22,586 nucleotides of DNA. Origin: Calditrichota bacterium (GTDB lineage: Bacteria; CLD3). Position 1 is the stretch's first letter, and every line of letters starts with the position of its first letter. Below, in pieces: positions 6,862 through 16,042 of the stretch. The stretch lies in assembly GCA_008501735.1 (NCBI GenBank), contig QQUF01000014.1, positions 1 through 22,586 of the forward strand. The letters run 5' to 3'. The position numbers were made by a program, and so were the translations under genes. The notes beneath the pieces were generated by a model. It had not been told where the DNA came from. It worked only from the letters and a program-made list of their open reading frames with translations, and ran no database searches.

Positions 6862-9258
6862 ATGAGCGGAAAAATAATCTGTAAAGGAAGCGGTGGTAAT
6901 AACGACAAGTTTATTCGCCGATTTAAGACCTTAATAAATTCCTCTAATCACTCCGACCCGAAAGTAAGAAAATCTAAAAAAATCCTTCTGATTACAGCTG
7001 CTTGGCAAAAATCTGAGTTCGAGGAAGGACACCTCAAAAAAGTTTTGAATGAAATTGGAATACCTTCTTCTTTTGACGAAAATGGTTACGATGTGAACAT
7101 TCAGAATCTTTCGATTTATTTTATGTTCAACAACTTCAAAAAAAAATGCCCTGAACTTTACGACCTTTACCACGAAAAACAAGAAACCATAATTCGCATC
7201 AAAGATTTTTACAGAACTAAGAATCTTGGAATGATTGAGACTTATTGGGAACAGGTCAAACTTCTGCAAAAACACTACCCCAAAATGACTTTGCACGAAA
7301 TATTGAACTACAAACTTGATGAAAAAATCATTGACCACAAAAAATTAACGCCTCAAGAATTGGAAAAACTTTTCTTCTGTCGCCAAGTCCAAAACACAAT
7401 GCAAAACATAATCACTTACGACCAAAAAATGGTTAATGTTGTTGAAGAAATGGACGAGCATTTTACCTCTTACTCTAAATTAAAAGAAAATCTAGTTTAT
7501 CAGGAAAAACGAAAAAGGCTTGAAGAACGTATTCTTACCTCCAATTCTATTTTTATTTTGGACGGACACATTTCAGTTCTGATGAACAGGCTTAGATTTT
7601 TCGATTTACGAGATGCTTTTGTGGAAGCTTTGAACAGAGGTACTAATTTCTATTTAGTTGGTTCAGGTGCGGAAATTCTTTGCGACAAAATGATTCTTTT
7701 TAATTCCGATAAAAAACTCGGTGACAATCAGACTGAGCATTTTGAATTTTATGACAACGGTTTCGGTATCATAAAAAACATTCAAATTATGCCAAAAAAC
7801 ATTGACGAAATTGACTTTTCAAATAAAGAACTTTTGACTCACCTTGCAAATCGCTTCAATTCTCACACTTCGGTTTTCCTAAACAAAGGTTCTTACCTTT
7901 TTATGGAAAACCAAATTGATGAAGAAGCTAATTCACAAGAAGTAAAATACATTTCGATTGGAGGTTCAAAGGATTACTTACAAGTTTTCTCTAAAGACGG
8001 TGTCGTTGAGAAAGTCAAAACAGGTGAGGAAATTTTCCCAAGCCGAGAACACAAAAGATTCCAAAACCTAATCGAAAGACACACATCGAAAAACCTTGCT
8101 GAATTGCTCAAAAGAGTTTTCAGACTTTCAAAAATACACCCTTCTGGAATTGAAAAGGCTGTCGAAAATTTTATCGTTGAAAATTCTTTCCCTTTGCGTG
8201 AAAAATTAGTTACGACATTTTTTTACTACGACCCAACAGGCAAAGTAGAATCTGTTTACTTGGAAAGTGCTTTAGGTTTTAGAGGCGATAACAACGTTTT
8301 TTTTCAATATCAAAACACAGGCATTTTTTACTTTCCACTAGAATTTCAGCCGAACTCAAGATTAGAGTACAAAATTGCTTTAGACTTCGGAAATGGGCAA
8401 AGAGAAATTTTAGACCCTTACAATCCGAACTTGGCTAACGCTCCTTTTGGTCCAAAATCAGTAATGACAACTTTAGACTACAAACCAACTATATTTTCTA
8501 TTAGCGAAGAAAGAACTGAGAGTTACATCGAAAGATTTGAGTTTGACAGCAAAATAATGAAGGACAAAAGAGAGTTTCAAATTTACACTCCGAAAGAGTT
8601 TGAAAATGAGGCTTTGCCAATTGTTGTTTTTCACGACGGTTACGACTACCTAAGATTTTCAAACTTGCAAAAAATACTAGATAGTATGATTTACGAAAAA
8701 GCAATAAAACCTATTCGTGGGATTTTTACAAAACCAATTGACCGAAGAAATGAGTATGCGGCAAGTCCTGATTACGCAAAATTTATTTCTGAAGAATTAA
8801 TCGAAGAAATTGGAAAGCACAAAAAACTACCTTCTGGTAAAGAAAACTTTTGTACTGTTGGAGCAAGTTTTGGTGGTTTAATTTCTCTTTATTTAATGGA
8901 TTCCTACCCAAAAGTTTTTGGAAATGCTTTGTGTCAATCAGGTTCATTTTTTATGAAACTTCACGGATTCGATTACTATACTTCACATTTTCCCAAAATT
9001 AATAAATTTGTAAACTCATTCGTAAAATCGAAGACAAAGATTGATTCCAAAGTTGTACTGACTTGCGGTAGATTTGAAAGTTTAGTTTACCTAAACCGTG
9101 AAATGGTTGAAGTTCTTGACAAGCGTAATTGTGATTACAAATATTTTGAAAACAACGACGGACACACTTGGACTGGTTGGGCGAACTCAATGCCGCAAGG
9201 TTTGATAAATATTTTTGGAAATCCTAAAAAGGTTAAATTAAGGAAGGTAGGAAGCTAA
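6862..9258 (+). CDS. Peptidase S51/cyanophycinase-like domain fused to an enterochelin-esterase-like hydrolase
   Basis: A 798-residue soluble protein without a signal peptide. Residues 1-390 look like a class I glutamine-amidotransferase fold of the S51/cyanophycinase type: GSGGNNDKFIRRF, the strand KKILLITAAWQK (39-50), SIFILDGHISVLMNRL (236 region) and the elbow LVGSGAE with Ser268, then a GFGIIKNIQIMPKN region. A helical insertion of about 140 residues (roughly 80-225) splits it. The usual later catalytic His (as in QHF) is not obvious, so this half may be inactive. Residues about 450-540 resemble the N-terminal beta domain of Fes-type esterases (FYYDPTG, ILDPYNPN 516-523). Residues about 560-790 are an alpha/beta hydrolase with HDG 591-593, GASFGG with nucleophile Ser669, candidate acid Glu739 (GRFES) and His768 (NDGHTW). 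It probably cleaves esters or a peptide-like conjugate; the substrate is unknown. It appears monocistronic. Confidence 0.72.
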   Translation: MSGKIICKGSGGNNDKFIRRFKTLINSSNHSDPKVRKSKKILLITAAWQKSEFEEGHLKKVLNEIGIPSSFDENGYDVNIQNLSIYFMFNNFKKKCPELYDLYHEKQETIIRIKDFYRTKNLGMIETYWEQVKLLQKHYPKMTLHEILNYKLDEKIIDHKKLTPQELEKLFFCRQVQNTMQNIITYDQKMVNVVEEMDEHFTSYSKLKENLVYQEKRKRLEERILTSNSIFILDGHISVLMNRLRFFDLRDAFVEALNRGTNFYLVGSGAEILCDKMILFNSDKKLGDNQTEHFEFYDNGFGIIKNIQIMPKNIDEIDFSNKELLTHLANRFNSHTSVFLNKGSYLFMENQIDEEANSQEVKYISIGGSKDYLQVFSKDGVVEKVKTGEEIFPSREHKRFQNLIERHTSKNLAELLKRVFRLSKIHPSGIEKAVENFIVENSFPLREKLVTTFFYYDPTGKVESVYLESALGFRGDNNVFFQYQNTGIFYFPLEFQPNSRLEYKIALDFGNGQREILDPYNPNLANAPFGPKSVMTTLDYKPTIFSISEERTESYIERFEFDSKIMKDKREFQIYTPKEFENEALPIVVFHDGYDYLRFSNLQKILDSMIYEKAIKPIRGIFTKPIDRRNEYAASPDYAKFISEELIEEIGKHKKLPSGKENFCTVGASFGGLISLYLMDSYPKVFGNALCQSGSFFMKLHGFDYYTSHFPKINKFVNSFVKSKTKIDSKVVLTCGRFESLVYLNREMVEVLDKRNCDYKYFENNDGHTWTGWANSMPQGLINIFGNPKKVKLRKVGS

Positions 9259-9557: not shown

Positions 9558-11288
9558 TTAGCCAATCCATTTTTGGAAAATTTGCTCGGCTAACTCGCTA
9601 ACGTCTTCCTTTTTGACCAATTTATAATTTTCTTCTCGTAGGCTTGTTGCTTCAAGTTCAACTTCTCTAATTTCTAAATCACGTGCAATTAAAAATTTAA
9701 ACTTTTGTCCACTTTCAGATTTTGTTAAAAACTTTTCAAGCAAAGTTTTGTTCACTCTAATTCCGTCGATAGCAATAATTTCGTCGTTAACGTTAATATC
9801 CGAATCCCAAGAAGGTGTTCCTTGATAAATTCTATTAACCGTTAGTGTACCTTCTTTTTCAGAAAAATCAAGACCTAAGTTACGAGGTAGAGCTTCATCT
9901 TTTACAAACTCAACTCCTGCGTAACCCAAGTATTTTTCGTAATCAATTTCTTCCGTTGTCTCAAGATAGTTTACAAGGATTTCAGGAAAGTCACTTCCAA
10001 CAACTTCCTTTACCATTTCTTTGAACTCCTCTTTCGTAAAACCTCGTTTTTCTTCTTTGTAAAACTTGTTAAATCTCAAAAGAACATCGTCAAAAGATTT
10101 TTCGTTTTTAGAGTAGTTGCGAATTGCTAAATCAAGACACATTATTAATAAAGCACCTTTGTTATAGTAAGAACAAATTGTGTTTGACGAGTTTTCGTTT
10201 TGCCTGTAAAATTTTATCCAAGCATCAAAACTTGATTCTTCAAGCGTACAAATATTTCTACCATAATTCGTTTGTAATCTTTTGATGTTCTTGGAAACAA
10301 CTTCCAAATATTCTTCTGTCGTGTAAAAGCCTGTCTTTAAAACTAAAAAATCATCATAGTAGCTCGTAATTCCTTCTGCAACCCAAAGCAATTTTGTGTA
10401 AATCTCTTGGTCATAGTCGAAAGGTCCTAACTCAATCGGTCGGATTCGTTTCACATTCCAAAGATGAAAAAACTCGTGTGCAATCAGTGCTAACCAATCC
10501 TTGTAACGTTTCTCATCAACAAGTTCAAATGGGTCAAAAACAACTGCCATTGAATTTAGGTGTTCGAGTCCGCCATATTTTCCGGGTGAGAAAATGCAAA
10601 TAAAAGTATAATCTTTGTAAGGAAGTTCACCGAAAAGTTCAAACTCTGTTTCGACAATTTTTTTGATGTCAGAGACAAAAGTGTTTTTATCATTTTTAAA
10701 AATCCCTTGAACTGCGATTTCGTGATTTTTACCATCAACTTCAAAATCAAAAGTTTGGTAATTTCCGCAAAGAAGAGGTGAATCTACGAGAATGTCGTAA
10801 TTTTCAATTTGGAAAGTGTTAGTTCTTCCTTCAATTCTTTTAAGTCCTGTCGAAACTTTTTCCCAACCTTCGGGAAGCTCAACTTTTAGCAAAGCCTTTT
10901 CATTTTTAAATTCCTCCAAGTAAACAAAAGTCGCGGAAGGAGTAACGAAAGCGTAAGAGGAGTTTAGGAAATTTGTTCTAACTGTTAGGTCGAAAGAGTA
11001 AACCAAGTAGGAAACTTGAACCGACTCTTCCAAGCCTTTAAAAATCCGCCAAGTATTTTTGTTAATTTTTTCAAAATTTAAATTTTGGTCTGAAAAGTCG
11101 TTTGCTGTAAATTCGTGAACGTGTTGTGCGTACTCACGCACCATATACGAACCAGGAGTCCAAACAGGAATTTTTACGTCAATGAATTCTTTGTCAGCAG
11201 GAAGTTTGTTAAACGAAACTTCTACCTTTAGGTAGTGCCTGTGAGGATTTTCCATTGATAATTTGTAAACAGTTTTATACTCTTTCAT
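9558..11288 (-). CDS. M61-family metallopeptidase (glycyl aminopeptidase type) with C-terminal PDZ domain
   Basis: A zinc peptidase of 576 residues from the ATG at 11286-11288 (MKEYKTVYKLSM). The frame is open 33 bases further, but homologous sequence begins at this Met and TAGAGAA lies 6 bases before it. The N-terminal third is a beta-rich M61 domain (SMENPHRHYLKVEV, IPVWTPGSYMVREYA). The gluzincin motif HEFFH is at 271-275 in IAHEFFHLWNVKRIRP, with the third ligand E305 in WVAEGITSYYDD. A PDZ domain covers roughly 475-555 (LGLDFSEKEGTLTVNRI, DEIIAIDGIRVN). No signal peptide is seen, so it is probably cytoplasmic and cleaves peptides with N-terminal Gly or Ala, as described for the family. 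It is divergent from the LEA14-like gene across about 50 bases and heads an apparent operon with the zinc-ribbon gene. Confidence 0.93.
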   Translation of the reverse strand: MKEYKTVYKLSMENPHRHYLKVEVSFNKLPADKEFIDVKIPVWTPGSYMVREYAQHVHEFTANDFSDQNLNFEKINKNTWRIFKGLEESVQVSYLVYSFDLTVRTNFLNSSYAFVTPSATFVYLEEFKNEKALLKVELPEGWEKVSTGLKRIEGRTNTFQIENYDILVDSPLLCGNYQTFDFEVDGKNHEIAVQGIFKNDKNTFVSDIKKIVETEFELFGELPYKDYTFICIFSPGKYGGLEHLNSMAVVFDPFELVDEKRYKDWLALIAHEFFHLWNVKRIRPIELGPFDYDQEIYTKLLWVAEGITSYYDDFLVLKTGFYTTEEYLEVVSKNIKRLQTNYGRNICTLEESSFDAWIKFYRQNENSSNTICSYYNKGALLIMCLDLAIRNYSKNEKSFDDVLLRFNKFYKEEKRGFTKEEFKEMVKEVVGSDFPEILVNYLETTEEIDYEKYLGYAGVEFVKDEALPRNLGLDFSEKEGTLTVNRIYQGTPSWDSDINVNDEIIAIDGIRVNKTLLEKFLTKSESGQKFKFLIARDLEIREVELEATSLREENYKLVKKEDVSELAEQIFQKWIG

Positions 11289-11341
11289 AAAATTCTCTAA
11301 GTGTTTTAAATTCATTAACAAAAATTGAAAGATTTTCTAAA

Positions 11342-11791
11342 ATGCGAAAAAGAAAAGTTAACCTTTTTTTCCTAATTTTTTTAAACTTTTTACTCTTTTC
11401 TTGCGGTAAGCCTTACAAGAAAGTTGAAATCCGAAACGTCTCGAACATCAAAATCGAAAATTTTTCTTTCAGTGGAATCACTTCAAAAGTCGAAGTTGAA
11501 GTTTTTAATCCAAATCCTTACAACATCGAAATTAAAGAAATTGAGTACGATTTGTATTTTCAAGATAAGCTTTTTACCTCGGGAATTTCAGAGATTAACC
11601 AAACCTTGAAAAGCAAAAAAATTACCTTTGTCGAAGTGCCTTTTACACTAAAACTTTCAAAAGCATTTCAAGGAGGAATCAAACAATTTGAAGGAGAAAA
11701 TTTCAGTTACCGAGTCGAAGGAAAAGCAAAAGTTAAAGCCTTAGGAAAAACCCTCACACGAAAATTCAATTTTGAAAAATCACTCAAATGA
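11342..11791 (+). CDS. LEA14-like (LEA type 2) lipoprotein
   Basis: A 149-residue lipoprotein. The signal sequence has a basic start (MRKRK), a hydrophobic core and the lipobox LLFSC with lipidated Cys21. The mature part fits the LEA type 2/water-stress fold: ITSKVEVEVFNPNPYNIEIKEIEYDLYFQDKLF with the typical 'NPNPY' motif, then FVEVPFTLKLSKAF and YRVEGKAKVKALG near the end. The family is a small beta sandwich in the envelope; a role in desiccation or envelope stress is suggested for relatives but not established here. The stop codon overlaps the uvrC start by four bases (ATGA), so the two are translationally coupled, although the functional link is unclear. There is no strong Shine-Dalgarno site, and the divergent promoter region shared with the M61 gene is very short. 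Confidence 0.85.
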   Translation: MRKRKVNLFFLIFLNFLLFSCGKPYKKVEIRNVSNIKIENFSFSGITSKVEVEVFNPNPYNIEIKEIEYDLYFQDKLFTSGISEINQTLKSKKITFVEVPFTLKLSKAFQGGIKQFEGENFSYRVEGKAKVKALGKTLTRKFNFEKSLK

Positions 11792-13614
11792 AACTAAAAT
11801 CACAGTTAGAAGAAAAGCTCAAAAACCTGCCCCAAAACCCTGGCGTTTACGTTTACAGAGATTCCAAAGGCAAAATAATTTACATCGGGAAAGCGAAAGT
11901 TCTGAAAAACCGAGTGCGTTCTTACTTCACTTCAACTCACAAAAAAGACGGTAAAACACGAACTCTTGTCAAAAAAATTTCCGATCTCGAAACAATCATT
12001 ACTGACAACGAAGTCGAAGCTCTCATTCTCGAAGCAAACTTGATTTACAAACACCAACCTCGTTACAATATTCTTCTAAAAAAAGACAACTCTTACCCGT
12101 ACATAAAAATTACGAAAGAAGTTTATCCAAGAATTTTTTACACCCGAAACATCGTTCAAGACGGCTCAAAATATTTTGGACCTTACACAAATCGCTTCCT
12201 TTTGAACTCGCAGCTTGAAGTGATTAAAAAAATCTTCAAAACAAGAATTTGCCACCACAAATTTGATGAAAAATATTTGAAAAAAATGACTGTTCCTGTT
12301 TGCCTTGAATTTCATTTAAACAAATGTTTCGGACAGTGCCAAGGACACATTTCAGTTGAAGAAGAGCAAGAAAATTTCAAAAGAATCGCAAAATTTCTTA
12401 ACGGACACACTCGCGAAGTCATCATTGAAATGAAAGAAAAAATGGACTCGCTTGCGAAAAAATTTGCCTTTGAAAAAGCCGCAGAAATCCGCGATTACAT
12501 TGCAATTTTGGAGAATTTTTCTAATAAACAAAAAGTGGTTTCAAACGACTTTGTTGACCGCGACATTGTTGCAATTGCAGTCGAAGGAGATGACGCTTGT
12601 GGAGTAATTTTCAAAGTTCGTGGCGGAAAATTGCTCGGAAGAATACACTACTACTTAGCCAACGTTCTTGAAAAAACAGAAGGCGAAATCCTTGAAACAA
12701 TCATTGAACAGTACTACTTAAAAGCCGATTTTATCCCTCAAGAACTAATGCTTTCAAACGACTTTGAAGAAGGAACGGAAACTTTCGGGAAGTGGCTTTC
12801 GGAAAAACGAGGCACAAAAGTAAAAATTGTGATTCCTCAAATTGGCGAAAAGTCTCAACTAATCGAAATGACTCGCAAAAACGCCGAACTTCTTCTGAAC
12901 GAACTGAAATTGAAAAAGCTCAAAAACAAAGACTTTGTGCCTCGTGCAATTTCTGCTTTGCAAAGAGATTTACACCTTGAAAATCCACCGCGAAGAATGG
13001 AGTGCTTTGACAATTCAAACATTCAAGGAAGCGACCCTGTTGCTTCGATGGTTGTTTTTGTGAACGGAAAACCTTTGAAAAATGATTACAGAAAATTCAA
13101 AATCAAAACTGTTGTCGGTCCTGACGACTTCGCAAGTATGTTTGAAATCGTTACAAGACGATACAAACGAGTTCTTGAAGAAAAGCAAAAAATGCCGGAT
13201 TTGATTGTGATTGACGGAGGAAAAGGACAGCTCAGCAGTGCAGTAAGTGCTTTGAAAAATCTTGGAATTGAAAACCAACCTATTATCGGTTTGGCAAAAA
13301 GGCTCGAAGAAGTTTTTCTGCCCGAACACACTGACCCACAGAACATTCCGCGAACTTCTTCCGGGTTAAAACTTTTGCAACAAATCCGAGACGAAGCTCA
13401 CCGTTTTGCGATAACTTTTCACAGAGATTTGAGAGCCAAAAGAATGACTCACTCAAAACTCGACGAAATTCCCGGAGTCGGTGGAAAAAGAAAAATGGCA
13501 CTCTTGCAGCACTTCGGCTCAATCAAACAAATCAAAGAAGCAACTCCCGCAGAAATTCAGAAAATAGGTAGAATTCCTTTGAAGTTAGCTGAGAGGATTT
13601 TAGCGGAAATTTGA
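11788..13614 (+). CDS. uvrC: UvrABC excinuclease subunit C
   Basis: The dual-incision nuclease of nucleotide excision repair, 608 residues, full length. Domains in order: GIY-YIG nuclease (GVYVYRDSKGKIIYIGKAKVL, residues 19-39) for the 3' cut; a cysteine-bearing segment (CHHKF...CLEFHLNKCFGQCQGH) typical of many UvrC proteins and possibly an Fe-S site; the UVR/UvrB-binding helix (FAFEKAAEIRDYI, around 230); the RNase H-like endonuclease for the 5' cut with MECFDNSNIQG, LIVIDGGKGQLSSA and RDEAHRFAITFHR; and C-terminal helix-hairpin-helix repeats (LDEIPGVGGKRKMALLQHFG). The start overlaps the preceding lipoprotein gene by ATGA. The last 83 bases are also covered by the minus-strand VOC gene. 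Confidence is very high. Confidence 0.98.
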   Translation: MKLKSQLEEKLKNLPQNPGVYVYRDSKGKIIYIGKAKVLKNRVRSYFTSTHKKDGKTRTLVKKISDLETIITDNEVEALILEANLIYKHQPRYNILLKKDNSYPYIKITKEVYPRIFYTRNIVQDGSKYFGPYTNRFLLNSQLEVIKKIFKTRICHHKFDEKYLKKMTVPVCLEFHLNKCFGQCQGHISVEEEQENFKRIAKFLNGHTREVIIEMKEKMDSLAKKFAFEKAAEIRDYIAILENFSNKQKVVSNDFVDRDIVAIAVEGDDACGVIFKVRGGKLLGRIHYYLANVLEKTEGEILETIIEQYYLKADFIPQELMLSNDFEEGTETFGKWLSEKRGTKVKIVIPQIGEKSQLIEMTRKNAELLLNELKLKKLKNKDFVPRAISALQRDLHLENPPRRMECFDNSNIQGSDPVASMVVFVNGKPLKNDYRKFKIKTVVGPDDFASMFEIVTRRYKRVLEEKQKMPDLIVIDGGKGQLSSAVSALKNLGIENQPIIGLAKRLEEVFLPEHTDPQNIPRTSSGLKLLQQIRDEAHRFAITFHRDLRAKRMTHSKLDEIPGVGGKRKMALLQHFGSIKQIKEATPAEIQKIGRIPLKLAERILAEI

Positions 13615-14011
13615 ACAAATTGAGTGTTACGACCGCTTTGAGCGTTCGCACCGCAATTTTTTGGTGGTCATTCGGATTGACTAACTGAAACCAATTTCCG
13701 TCTAAATCTGTGAAAATTAGGCATTTTTCCGAACCATCAATTCCTTGAAAATTCAAACCGTTTGTCTTTAAACTTTCAGCAGTTTTTGTGAGATTTTCTG
13801 TGTAAAGAACGAAACCTGTTTTTGCGGTTTGGTAAGTTTCTGAATCCGAAGTATTTTTACCTTTTCTTAAAAGAAATTCTTGTCCTTCTGTTGCAACCCA
13901 AACTAAGTTTTCACTCTGCTCTGCAACAATTTTAAAGCCTAAAATTTTTGTGTAAAACTCTTTAGCTTTCTGAACATCTTTTGTAAAAATTTCGATGTGT
14001 CCGAATTTCAT
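13532..14011 (-). CDS. VOC-superfamily protein with a C-terminal extension overlapping uvrC
   Basis: A 159-residue protein. Residues 1-115 are a complete VOC module: FGHIEIFTKDVQKAKEFYTKILGF at the start, TGFVLYTENLTKTAESLKTNG in the middle and FTDLDGNWFQLVNPND as the last strand. His5 could be a metal ligand; the usual final Glu is Gln109. The next 44 residues (KIAVRTLKAVVTLNLF onward) have no VOC character and run antisense through the 3' end of uvrC. They are probably a read-through extension after loss of an earlier stop codon. Function and substrate are unknown. AGAGGAG lies 6 bases before the ATG, a good ribosome site. The gene is divergent from the nuclease-like gene at 14107. Confidence 0.8.
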   Translation of the reverse strand: MKFGHIEIFTKDVQKAKEFYTKILGFKIVAEQSENLVWVATEGQEFLLRKGKNTSDSETYQTAKTGFVLYTENLTKTAESLKTNGLNFQGIDGSEKCLIFTDLDGNWFQLVNPNDHQKIAVRTLKAVVTLNLFKFPLKSSQLTSKEFYLFSEFLRELLL

Positions 14012-14078: not shown

Positions 14079-14106
14079 TAAAATCATAAAGTAAGGAAAA
14101 ATTAAA

Positions 14107-15081
14107 ATGAGTAAAAATTATTGGTGTTACAGAATTGATAAAAGCAACATTGAATTCTTTAAGGATGAACTCTTTAATGAAGGAAGACTTAGACAAGGTT
14201 GGGGTAGGAAACAAGATTTAAGAAATCTTCAATTAGATGAGGGTGCAGGCAGAAATAAATCAATGTTCAACAAGGTTAAGAAAAATGATATTCTTTTAGT
14301 TCCTCAACTTCCAGATCTAGGAAAAGTTGCAATTGTTGAGGCAACTGAGGACTGGTCAAAAGGTTATGATTTTAGGGTTGAGGAAAACTTGAAGGATTTC
14401 GGACATATTTTCCCTGCTAAATTCTTAAAATCCTTTACTAGAAATAGTAAAGAAGTAACAGGTAATTTACGCTCTACCTTAAGAAACCCTTCTCGATTTT
14501 GGAATATTAATCATTACACAGAAGATGTTGAAAATCTAATAAACTCTAATCAAAATGAATTGGACAAAAAACAAGATTACGAAAGTAGGTTGTTAAGTAC
14601 TATCGGCTCAGTATTCAATGAGTCTTTTATAGAAAAAGACTTCAAAAACGATCTTTATGACAAGCTTAATGACCAATTTACAAGCGAGGAGTGGGAATTC
14701 ATATTAGTAAATGGTTTGAGGAAAATATTTCCATTTTACCAGATTGAACGTGTAGGTGGAAAAGAAGAAAAGAAACACGGTACTGATATTCTAATAAAAA
14801 TGCCTTCCTTAATTTCTAGTTATGAGTATGGAATTTCTATTCAAGTAAAAGATTATGAAGGAGTAGTCGGTGAGGAAGTTATTCAACAAATAAACAAAGC
14901 TGATGAATATTGGAATAACGAGAACTTTAAATTAATTGAGAAATGGGTTATAGTTACACGTACCTCTAAAGAAGAGAATAATGGGCTAGTATCAAATACT
15001 AGTAATGTTAAGTTTATATTTGCAAATGGGTTAAAAGAGTTGTTAAACACAATGGCAAAAAGTTTTATAGGTATAAATTAA
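14107..15081 (+). CDS. PUA/EVE-like plus Mrr-type nuclease protein (candidate modification-dependent restriction enzyme)
   Basis: A soluble 324-residue protein with two parts. Residues 1-145 (WCYRIDKSNIEFFKDELFNE, LRQGWG, MFNKVKKNDILLVPQLPDLGKVAIVEATEDW, FGHIFPAKFLKSF, NPSRFWNI) have the strand pattern of a PUA/EVE-like domain, a fold that can read modified bases. Residues about 195-320 fit an Mrr-like PD-(D/E)xK nuclease: a helix TSEEWEFILVNGLRKIF, then GGKEEKKHGTDILI with Asp227, YGISIQVKDY with Gln246-x-Lys248 (the Q-x-K variant seen in Mrr), and VVGEEVIQQINKADEYW. The architecture suggests a type IV-like restriction enzyme acting on modified foreign DNA. No methyltransferase lies nearby. 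Asp codons are GAT 14, GAC 5, Asn codons AAT 22, AAC 10, and ATA is frequent, unlike its neighbours, so recent acquisition is likely. The N-terminal fold is the less certain part. Confidence 0.7.
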   Translation: MSKNYWCYRIDKSNIEFFKDELFNEGRLRQGWGRKQDLRNLQLDEGAGRNKSMFNKVKKNDILLVPQLPDLGKVAIVEATEDWSKGYDFRVEENLKDFGHIFPAKFLKSFTRNSKEVTGNLRSTLRNPSRFWNINHYTEDVENLINSNQNELDKKQDYESRLLSTIGSVFNESFIEKDFKNDLYDKLNDQFTSEEWEFILVNGLRKIFPFYQIERVGGKEEKKHGTDILIKMPSLISSYEYGISIQVKDYEGVVGEEVIQQINKADEYWNNENFKLIEKWVIVTRTSKEENNGLVSNTSNVKFIFANGLKELLNTMAKSFIGIN

Positions 15082-15122: not shown

Positions 15123-15596
15123 ATGAAAAAAAGCAAAGAAAGCAACACCTTAAAAATGACTTTCGAGGAATCAATTTTCATTGAAGCAACTCCGGAAGTT
15201 GTTTGGGATTTTACTCAAGACTACTCAAAAAGACCAAATTGGGATTCCGCTGTAATCAAAACAGAAGTTATTTCTGAAAAACCTCACCGAGTTGTTCGTG
15301 TTTTTGTAAAAGGCGGAACAACAACTGCTTTCCAGTACAAACTTGACCGTCGTCCGGAAAAAACAAGTTTACAAGCAATCGAAATGAAATCTTTATTTTT
15401 TGCGAGTGGAGGAGGTTCTTGGGTTTACAAATCAAGGTCGAACGGAACAATTTGGACACAAAGAAACACTTTAGCTTTTAAGAACAAATTTTTGACTTTA
15501 CTTTTTAAACCTTTATTTTCTTGGCAAATTACCAAACTCACAAGGCAATCAATGCACGAAGCAAAAAAACAAATTGAGAACGAACTCACAAAATGA
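15123..15596 (+). CDS. SRPBCC (START/Bet v1-like) ligand-binding protein
   Basis: A 157-residue protein from the ATG at 15123. A TTG 18 bases upstream and an ATG at 15156 are other possible starts. It has the helix-grip pattern of polyketide-cyclase/SRPBCC proteins: FEESIFIEATPEVVWDFTQDYSKRPNWDSAV at the start, VVRVFVKGG and FQYKLDRRPEKTSLQAIEM strands, SGGGSWVYKS, then a long C-terminal helix (LTRQSMHEAKKQIENEL). Members bind hydrophobic ligands; a few are cyclases or hydrolases. No catalytic residue can be assigned. A hydrophobic stretch near residue 125 (FLTLLFKPLFSWQITKL) may contact membrane. The last codon overlaps the Nudix gene start (ATGA), so they are translationally coupled and may act on the same compound. 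Confidence 0.8.
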   Translation: MKKSKESNTLKMTFEESIFIEATPEVVWDFTQDYSKRPNWDSAVIKTEVISEKPHRVVRVFVKGGTTTAFQYKLDRRPEKTSLQAIEMKSLFFASGGGSWVYKSRSNGTIWTQRNTLAFKNKFLTLLFKPLFSWQITKLTRQSMHEAKKQIENELTK

Positions 15597-16042
15597 AAAA
15601 AATCCTTAAAGTCTGTCCTTGTATTTTGAAAGAAGAAAAAGGGAAATGGTTCATTTTGGCTTTTAAACACCCGATTGCAGGAAACCAAATTCCAAAAGGA
15701 ACTGTCGAACCAAACGAAGAAATTGAAAAAGCGACTTTGAGAGAACTCAAAGAAGAGTCAGGAATTTCAGAAGCAAGAATTGAAAACTTTATTGGAAAAT
15801 TTGACAGAGTTGTTGAAAATGAAGACGGAAATTTGGAACACCACGAATGGCATTTGTTTGACGTTAGAGCTGAAAACAATTTGCCGAAAAATTGGAATCA
15901 CAACGCAGAAGGAAGCTCAGAAGAAAATGGACTTGTTTTCCATTTTTTTTGGCAAGAGCTTTCGGTAGACTATAAAAACTACCACGAATATTTTTTGAAA
16001 GTCTTAGAGCTTGTTGAAAATTACCTAAAATATAAATTTTAA
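15593..16042 (+). CDS. Nudix hydrolase
   Basis: A 149-residue enzyme. A perfect Nudix box, G-x5-E-x7-REUxEExGU, lies at residues 36-58 (GTVEPNEE then RELKEESGI), with catalytic E51, E54 and E55. Family members hydrolyse a nucleoside diphosphate linked to another group, such as oxidised dNTPs, ADP-ribose or diadenosine polyphosphates, using Mg or Mn. The substrate cannot be read from the box; IAGNQIPKGTVEPNE and HHEWHLFDV resemble small house-cleaning members. The start overlaps the SRPBCC stop (ATGA). The stop lies two bases from the stop of the convergent LRR gene, leaving no room for a separate terminator. Confidence 0.92.
   Translation: MKKILKVCPCILKEEKGKWFILAFKHPIAGNQIPKGTVEPNEEIEKATLRELKEESGISEARIENFIGKFDRVVENEDGNLEHHEWHLFDVRAENNLPKNWNHNAEGSSEENGLVFHFFWQELSVDYKNYHEYFLKVLELVENYLKYKF

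Follow-up and report, generated by a model that had tools for sequence, protein, structure and literature searches.

Modification-dependent restriction enzymes are built in several ways. MspJI and AspBHI are modification-dependent enzymes that combine an SRA reader with an Mrr-family nuclease. Proteins that join an EVE- or YTH-like domain to a PD(D/E)XK nuclease have been catalogued and proposed as Type IV enzymes (Bell et al. 2020; PMC7641849), and the single-chain Type IV enzyme VcaM4I restricts DNA containing 5mC or 5hmC (PMC12707154). A further group, COG4127, exemplified by STM4490-type proteins, has been predicted to consist of restriction enzymes since 2005; its members have a Mrr-related C-terminal domain and a similar-sized N-terminal domain of then-unknown fold, some carry another second domain, and Type I restriction-modification (RM) genes occur among their neighbours (Feder and Bujnicki 2005; PMC1189080). 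COG4127 also appears among the McrB aliases in Bell et al. 2024 (PMC11090510).

The gene analysed here lies in a stretch of DNA of 22,586 nucleotides, referred to as the window, and we consider it likely to encode a stand-alone modification-dependent (Type IV) restriction enzyme. Its features are collected in Table 1.

Table 1. Features of the reader-nuclease gene and their positions in the window.
Feature	Position	Strand	Basis
Reader-nuclease gene, 324 aa, single-gene candidate Type IV restriction enzyme	14107..15081	+	ATG start; full-length relatives; purifying selection
AAGGA, likely ribosome-binding site, 9 nt 5' of the ATG	14093..14097	+	sequence reading
YTH/EVE-like (PUA-superfamily) putative modified-base reader, residues 1-150	14107..14556	+	AlphaFold model and VIA-align
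RQGWG signature, residues 29-33, after the second strand	14191..14205	+	invariant in 12 family members
D97-x-G99-H100-x-x-P103 motif of the reader domain	14395..14415	+	invariant in 12 family members
Helical linker, residues 151-190	14557..14676	+	secondary structure of the AlphaFold model
Mrr-type PD-(D/Q)xK nuclease domain, residues 191-320	14677..15066	+	Mrr_cat matches, AlphaFold superposition
Active-site codons D227 (14785-14787, GAT), Q246 (14842-14844, CAA) and K248 (14848-14850, AAA)	14785..14850	+	invariant in 12 of 12 aligned members

Domain architecture and active site

The open reading frame proposed by an earlier, sequence-only reading was recovered with exactly the same coordinates, on the + strand and with 324 aa, and its relatives, at 26-64% identity in several phyla, show that it is not a chance frame. 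AlphaFold predicted two domains, both for the window protein (pLDDT 80) and for an independent relative, L063 (pLDDT 86). Residues invariant in 12 family members are, in the N-terminal domain, R9, E21, R29-Q30-G31-W32-G33, L38, D61, D97, G99, H100, P103, R130 and W132, and, after it, R161, E197, G218, E221, G225, D227 and Q246-V247-K248. The nuclease site that had been proposed beforehand, Asp227 with Gln246-x-Lys248, is therefore present where it was placed and invariant throughout; the glutamate of the first helix, E197, and the RQGWG motif, both absent from that proposal, are equally invariant.

At the level of profiles, the assignment of the C-terminal domain to the Mrr nucleases held for the relatives and not directly for the window protein, which missed the Mrr_cat (PF04471) cut-off (16 bits versus 21) while L063 (34.9) and L120 (42.8) passed it, so that the link runs through intermediates. 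Superposition of the window model using VIA-align placed residues 192-318 on the Mrr-type protein AF1548 (1y88) with a Z of 10.6 (10.6-10.9 across both models), and residues 175-324 on MspJI with a Z of 9.2. MspJI was also the top Foldseek match for both models (E 9e-7 and 6e-7), followed by AspBHI for the L063 model; the large rmsd of these matches indicates that the domains are placed differently relative to each other. The nuclease call as such stands, since structure prediction yielded a PD-(D/Q)xK fold with an intact active site rather than a chain lacking the PD-(D/E)xK core. Searches of PDB sequences, by phmmer and by profile, gave no significant match. Two other matches of the window protein were discounted, namely, PADLOC ZorD, which reflects the Mrr-like C-terminal domain only, and NCBIfam TIGR04540, which is far below its cut-off.

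The call of the N-terminal domain as a modified-base reader also held, with a qualification. The YTH/EVE fold was found in both models, but none of the Pfam profiles EVE (PF01878), YTH (PF04146), PUA and ASCH matched the N-terminal domains of the window protein and its relatives at E values up to 5, so the reader is placed by its fold only. In the window model, residues 1-150 superposed on YTHDF2 (9qem_A) with a Z of 10.1 and an rmsd of 2.9 Å over 122 aligned residues, and on the archaeal EVE-type protein MJECL36 (2p5d) with a Z of 9.6; the domain of L063 matched YTHDC2 (Z 9.5), EVE-type PH1033 (Z 9.1) and VcaM4I (6yex; Z 9.0 over 136 residues), all by VIA-align. The two models thus agree on the PUA-superfamily YTH/EVE fold (Z 9-10, 116-136 residues, rmsd about 3-4 Å), with YTH and EVE structures tying within 1 Z, which does not discriminate between them. 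The Gly-Trp of RQGWG is retained in most COG4127-like proteins and in distant relatives, and W32 is a candidate pocket residue; a low-confidence stretch of the window model, residues 33-52, adjoins this presumed pocket.

Relatives, selection and genomic context

Members of the family are scattered and partly mobile. A full-length relative annotated as a 'restriction endonuclease' was found by tblastn on plasmid pNHAL01 of Nitrosococcus halophilus (27.9%, E 1e-30), and a two-sequence profile search added eight further loci, namely, the nearest relative in an Elusimicrobiota MAG (64%), two in Fibrobacter (45%), and others in Campylobacterota, Planctomycetota, a 'Proteobacteria' MAG, a deltaproteobacterial MAG (Myxococcota in the tree) and, as a broken copy, Bartonella. 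Another candidate, L082, proved to be a false match, a histidine kinase. The only copy among nine genomes of its own phylum is the window itself, and single genomes carry the gene in the Elusimicrobiota sample (1 of 294) and in the phylum of L063 (1 of 25). Matches were present in 10 of the 167 genomes of the Fibrobacterota sample, where close relatives account for seven, one of them frameshifted; the Planctomycetota sample held a few divergent relatives. In the tree, the window clusters with the Elusimicrobiota copy and a single copy from the Fibrobacterota sample (96/96), and grouping does not follow phylum. This patchy distribution resembles that of horizontally spread defence genes. Sequence searches of phage genomes and viral contigs found no relatives, and the GRLRQGWG DNA pattern retrieved only short chance open reading frames from viral contigs.

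Where dS is measurable, the Fibrobacterota copies have dN/dS values of about 0.05-0.07, that is, they are under strong purifying selection, with a dS of 1.22 and a dN of 0.083 for the Fibrobacter pair L113/L114. Between the window and L060 synonymous sites are saturated (pS 0.77) at a pN of 0.24. Thus, the protein is constrained. Frameshifted or truncated copies also exist, in L062 (7869-8946; Fibrobacter intestinalis), L064 and L067 (7600-8474; Bartonella MAG), and those of L067 and L062 suggest repeated gain and decay of the gene family.

Within the window, the nearest genes encode a divergently oriented glyoxalase (13532-14011), an SRPBCC protein (from 15123) and a NUDIX protein (15593-16042), with uvrC further upstream. 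Ten neighbours, which include genes for an M61 peptidase, an LEA_2 lipoprotein, UvrC, glyoxalase, SRPBCC, NUDIX, LRR, radical SAM and MetAP proteins, were examined with Pfam and PADLOC; no methyltransferase or convincing defence gene was found among them, as the sequence-only reading had maintained for the adjoining genes, and the sole PADLOC signal was a marginal match of the NUDIX protein (E 1e-4). The reader-nuclease gene has the lowest GC (0.31) and GC3 (0.26) among ten window genes compared. The order of M61 peptidase, LEA_2 lipoprotein and UvrC genes (window 9558-13614) is kept in a genome of the same family, G001. All sequence downstream of uvrC differs between the two, so an empty-site test could define no clean insertion site. 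Repeats near the gene amounted to weak, chance-like matches, and scans for promoters and terminators gave signals at chance level.

No recurrent neighbour emerged from an all-against-all comparison across the related loci and the window, and the sole neighbour shared outside the family occurred in two Fibrobacter genomes. Since no neighbour recurs, the reader-nuclease probably acts alone, which backs the earlier idea of a one-gene system. Several relatives have defence-type genes beside them: CAP12/Pycsar TIR in L002, a YhcG nuclease and an AbiH-like protein in L116, and ResIII/helicase and HsdR-like genes in L113. The stretch upstream of the nuclease in the last of these (L113 1-7984; Fibrobacterota sample, G485) holds an HsdR-like gene, a 1171-aa helicase gene and two genes with uncharacterised products (421 and 642 aa); together they may form a helicase-based defence cluster not described so far.

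Two further loci stand out, each of them a single observation. In L115 (G504:C3:109917-126879) the relative, at 8001-8978, sits inside a prophage. One flank holds genes for ParB, a DpdA-like member of the queuine transglycosylase family, QueC, a radical-SAM QueE-like protein, FolE, terminase and portal, and the other an endolysin and tail genes; this phage probably modifies its own DNA with a 7-deazaguanine, and it also carries the nuclease. In L126 (G942:C5, 15608-16060) an RQGWG reader without nuclease is fused behind a deoxyribosyltransferase/TIR-like domain, whose likeness to nucleoside deoxyribosyltransferases is weak (PF05014, E 0.002), in what may be a sensor-effector protein of another type; the arrangement suggests that the reader is modular. 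A bolder reading would take the RQGWG reader for an exchangeable sensor of some uncommon modified base of phages, perhaps derived from 7-deazaguanine, joined to different effectors, that is, the Mrr nuclease, the deoxyribosyltransferase/TIR-like domain of L126 and, via a COG4127-type cousin, McrB GTPases. The Fibrobacterota prophage nuclease, between its own deazaguanine cassette and the lysis gene, would then be a weapon against competing phages. To this extended picture we give little credence.

Proposed function and rival explanations

The stand-alone restriction enzyme that we favour would act in two steps. The YTH/EVE-like domain would flip a modified base out of the DNA into a pocket of conserved aromatics, with W32 of RQGWG and perhaps W132 or aromatic residues near 87-98, and the Mrr-type domain (D227, Q246-x-K248, and E197 on the first helix) would then cut close to it, probably in a dimeric or higher-order form like that of MspJI. 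Phage or plasmid DNA bearing the modification would be restricted in this way. A partner protein or methyltransferase would be dispensable if the host DNA lacked the trigger modification, or bore it solely in contexts that the reader ignores. Neither 5mC nor m6A as such is likely to suffice as the trigger, because the genome itself carries at least one C5-methyltransferase-like gene and several N6-methyltransferase-like genes, though sequence context could rescue either. Besides the missing Pfam match of the reader and the low-confidence stretch beside its presumed pocket, two points count against a restriction enzyme, namely, that a shared fold is not a shared function, and that the surroundings of the gene in the window are housekeeping in character and not a defence island.

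The second of these points, together with the frameshifted or truncated state of L062, L064 and L067, would fit a nuclease that has degenerated or serves housekeeping and plays no part in defence. Such a nuclease is nonetheless highly improbable here, given that the window copy is unbroken and keeps every catalytic residue, that purifying selection is strong, and that presence is sporadic even in near relatives, unlike that of a housekeeping gene. Modified RNA, for instance m6A-containing transcripts or tRNA, is a very unlikely target. The top structural neighbours of the N-terminal domain are indeed eukaryotic YTH readers of m6A in RNA, but EVE and VcaM4I structures tie with them in Z, which makes the likeness to RNA readers not specific; and while Bell et al. 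2024 (PMC11090510) predict that certain Type IV relatives act on RNA, the C-terminal domain is Mrr/MspJI-like and its closest solved nucleases are DNA enzymes.

The trigger might also be something other than a modified base, either unmodified DNA of a particular sequence or structure or a small nucleotide ligand, in the manner of Type II enzymes or of CARF/SAVED-nuclease effectors that share the catalytic fold. The C-terminal domain superposes on FokI, EcoT38I, Avs4 and Can2/Cap4-like effectors too, a ligand is not readable from sequence, and the frequent location of COG4127 relatives beside Type I RM genes makes an accessory role possible there. We still regard such a trigger as unlikely: the N-terminal fold is that of base readers, not of CARF or SAVED domains, and the gene is not accompanied by the methyltransferase that a Type II enzyme would need.

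If the restriction enzyme functions as predicted, it would be a compact single-gene cutter of modified DNA, pairing a YTH/EVE-like reader with an Mrr nuclease. To our knowledge, no such pairing has a solved structure or a published activity. It would also provide a test case for the modifications read by the large COG4127/PDC-S02 group and, possibly, a reagent for mapping modified bases. The analysis is of use in that it assigns a reader fold to the COG4127-type N-terminal domain, as argued below, and records the prophage/deazaguanine and TIR-like associations.

Comparison with known systems

The EVE/YTH-PD(D/E)XK fusions of Bell et al. 2020 have the same architecture as the window protein, a PUA-superfamily reader with a PD-(D/E)XK nuclease. 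However, that catalogue was built by PSI-BLAST/HHpred similarity to EVE and YTH, and the window reader has no Pfam EVE or YTH match. VcaM4I (EVE-HNH, 6YEX) shares the fold of its N-terminal domain with L063 (Z 9.0), but its nuclease is HNH and not Mrr-type. MspJI and AspBHI show the same domain order, nuclease class and logic; their reader, however, is an SRA domain rather than a YTH/EVE-like one, and sequence similarity to the window protein is not detectable. E. coli Mrr shares the nuclease class with its D...QxK site, and its N-terminal domain is a winged helix, not a PUA-type reader.

The closest link is with COG4127. Through one weak match, L083, a set of plasmid 'restriction endonucleases' came into view; several lie beside Type I RM or toxin-antitoxin genes, and PADLOC assigns the three that were tested to PDC-S02 (best model E 2e-87 or better, down to 1e-145). 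This set, assigned to COG4127 by the described features and by the PDC-S02 matches, was aligned as a profile (A5) with that of the window family (A3) using hhalign; the match (97.9%, E 6e-13) is full-length and collinear over 305 columns. Both groups have equal size and domain order, an Mrr-type C-terminal domain and a Gly-Trp...Asp-Leu motif in the N-terminal domain, and both are found in many phyla and on plasmids. They differ in that identity is about 16%, that the RQGWG and DxGH signatures are specific to the window family, and that COG4127 genes often adjoin Type I RM genes, which the window gene does not. Moreover, the PDC-S02 models gave no match to the window protein, P0001 or L060, and weak partial matches to L063, so that the PADLOC model set misses the window subfamily. 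Judged from these alignments, the window family is a sister subfamily of COG4127/PDC-S02, a divergent new member of a predicted class.

In known Type IV systems the reader sits at the N-terminus of the McrB GTPase. On plasmid p_4-4_A of Rhodococcus pyridinivorans (L091 3001-6334), a COG4127-type N-terminal domain precedes an McrB GTPase in one protein, and an McrC-like gene follows immediately downstream; the annotations of the two genes read no more than 'AAA family ATPase' and 'hypothetical protein'. Given this fusion and its McrC-like neighbour, and the full-length profile alignment with the window family, the COG4127-type N-terminal domain, of unknown function in 2005, has the look of a YTH/EVE-type reader serving Type IV systems.
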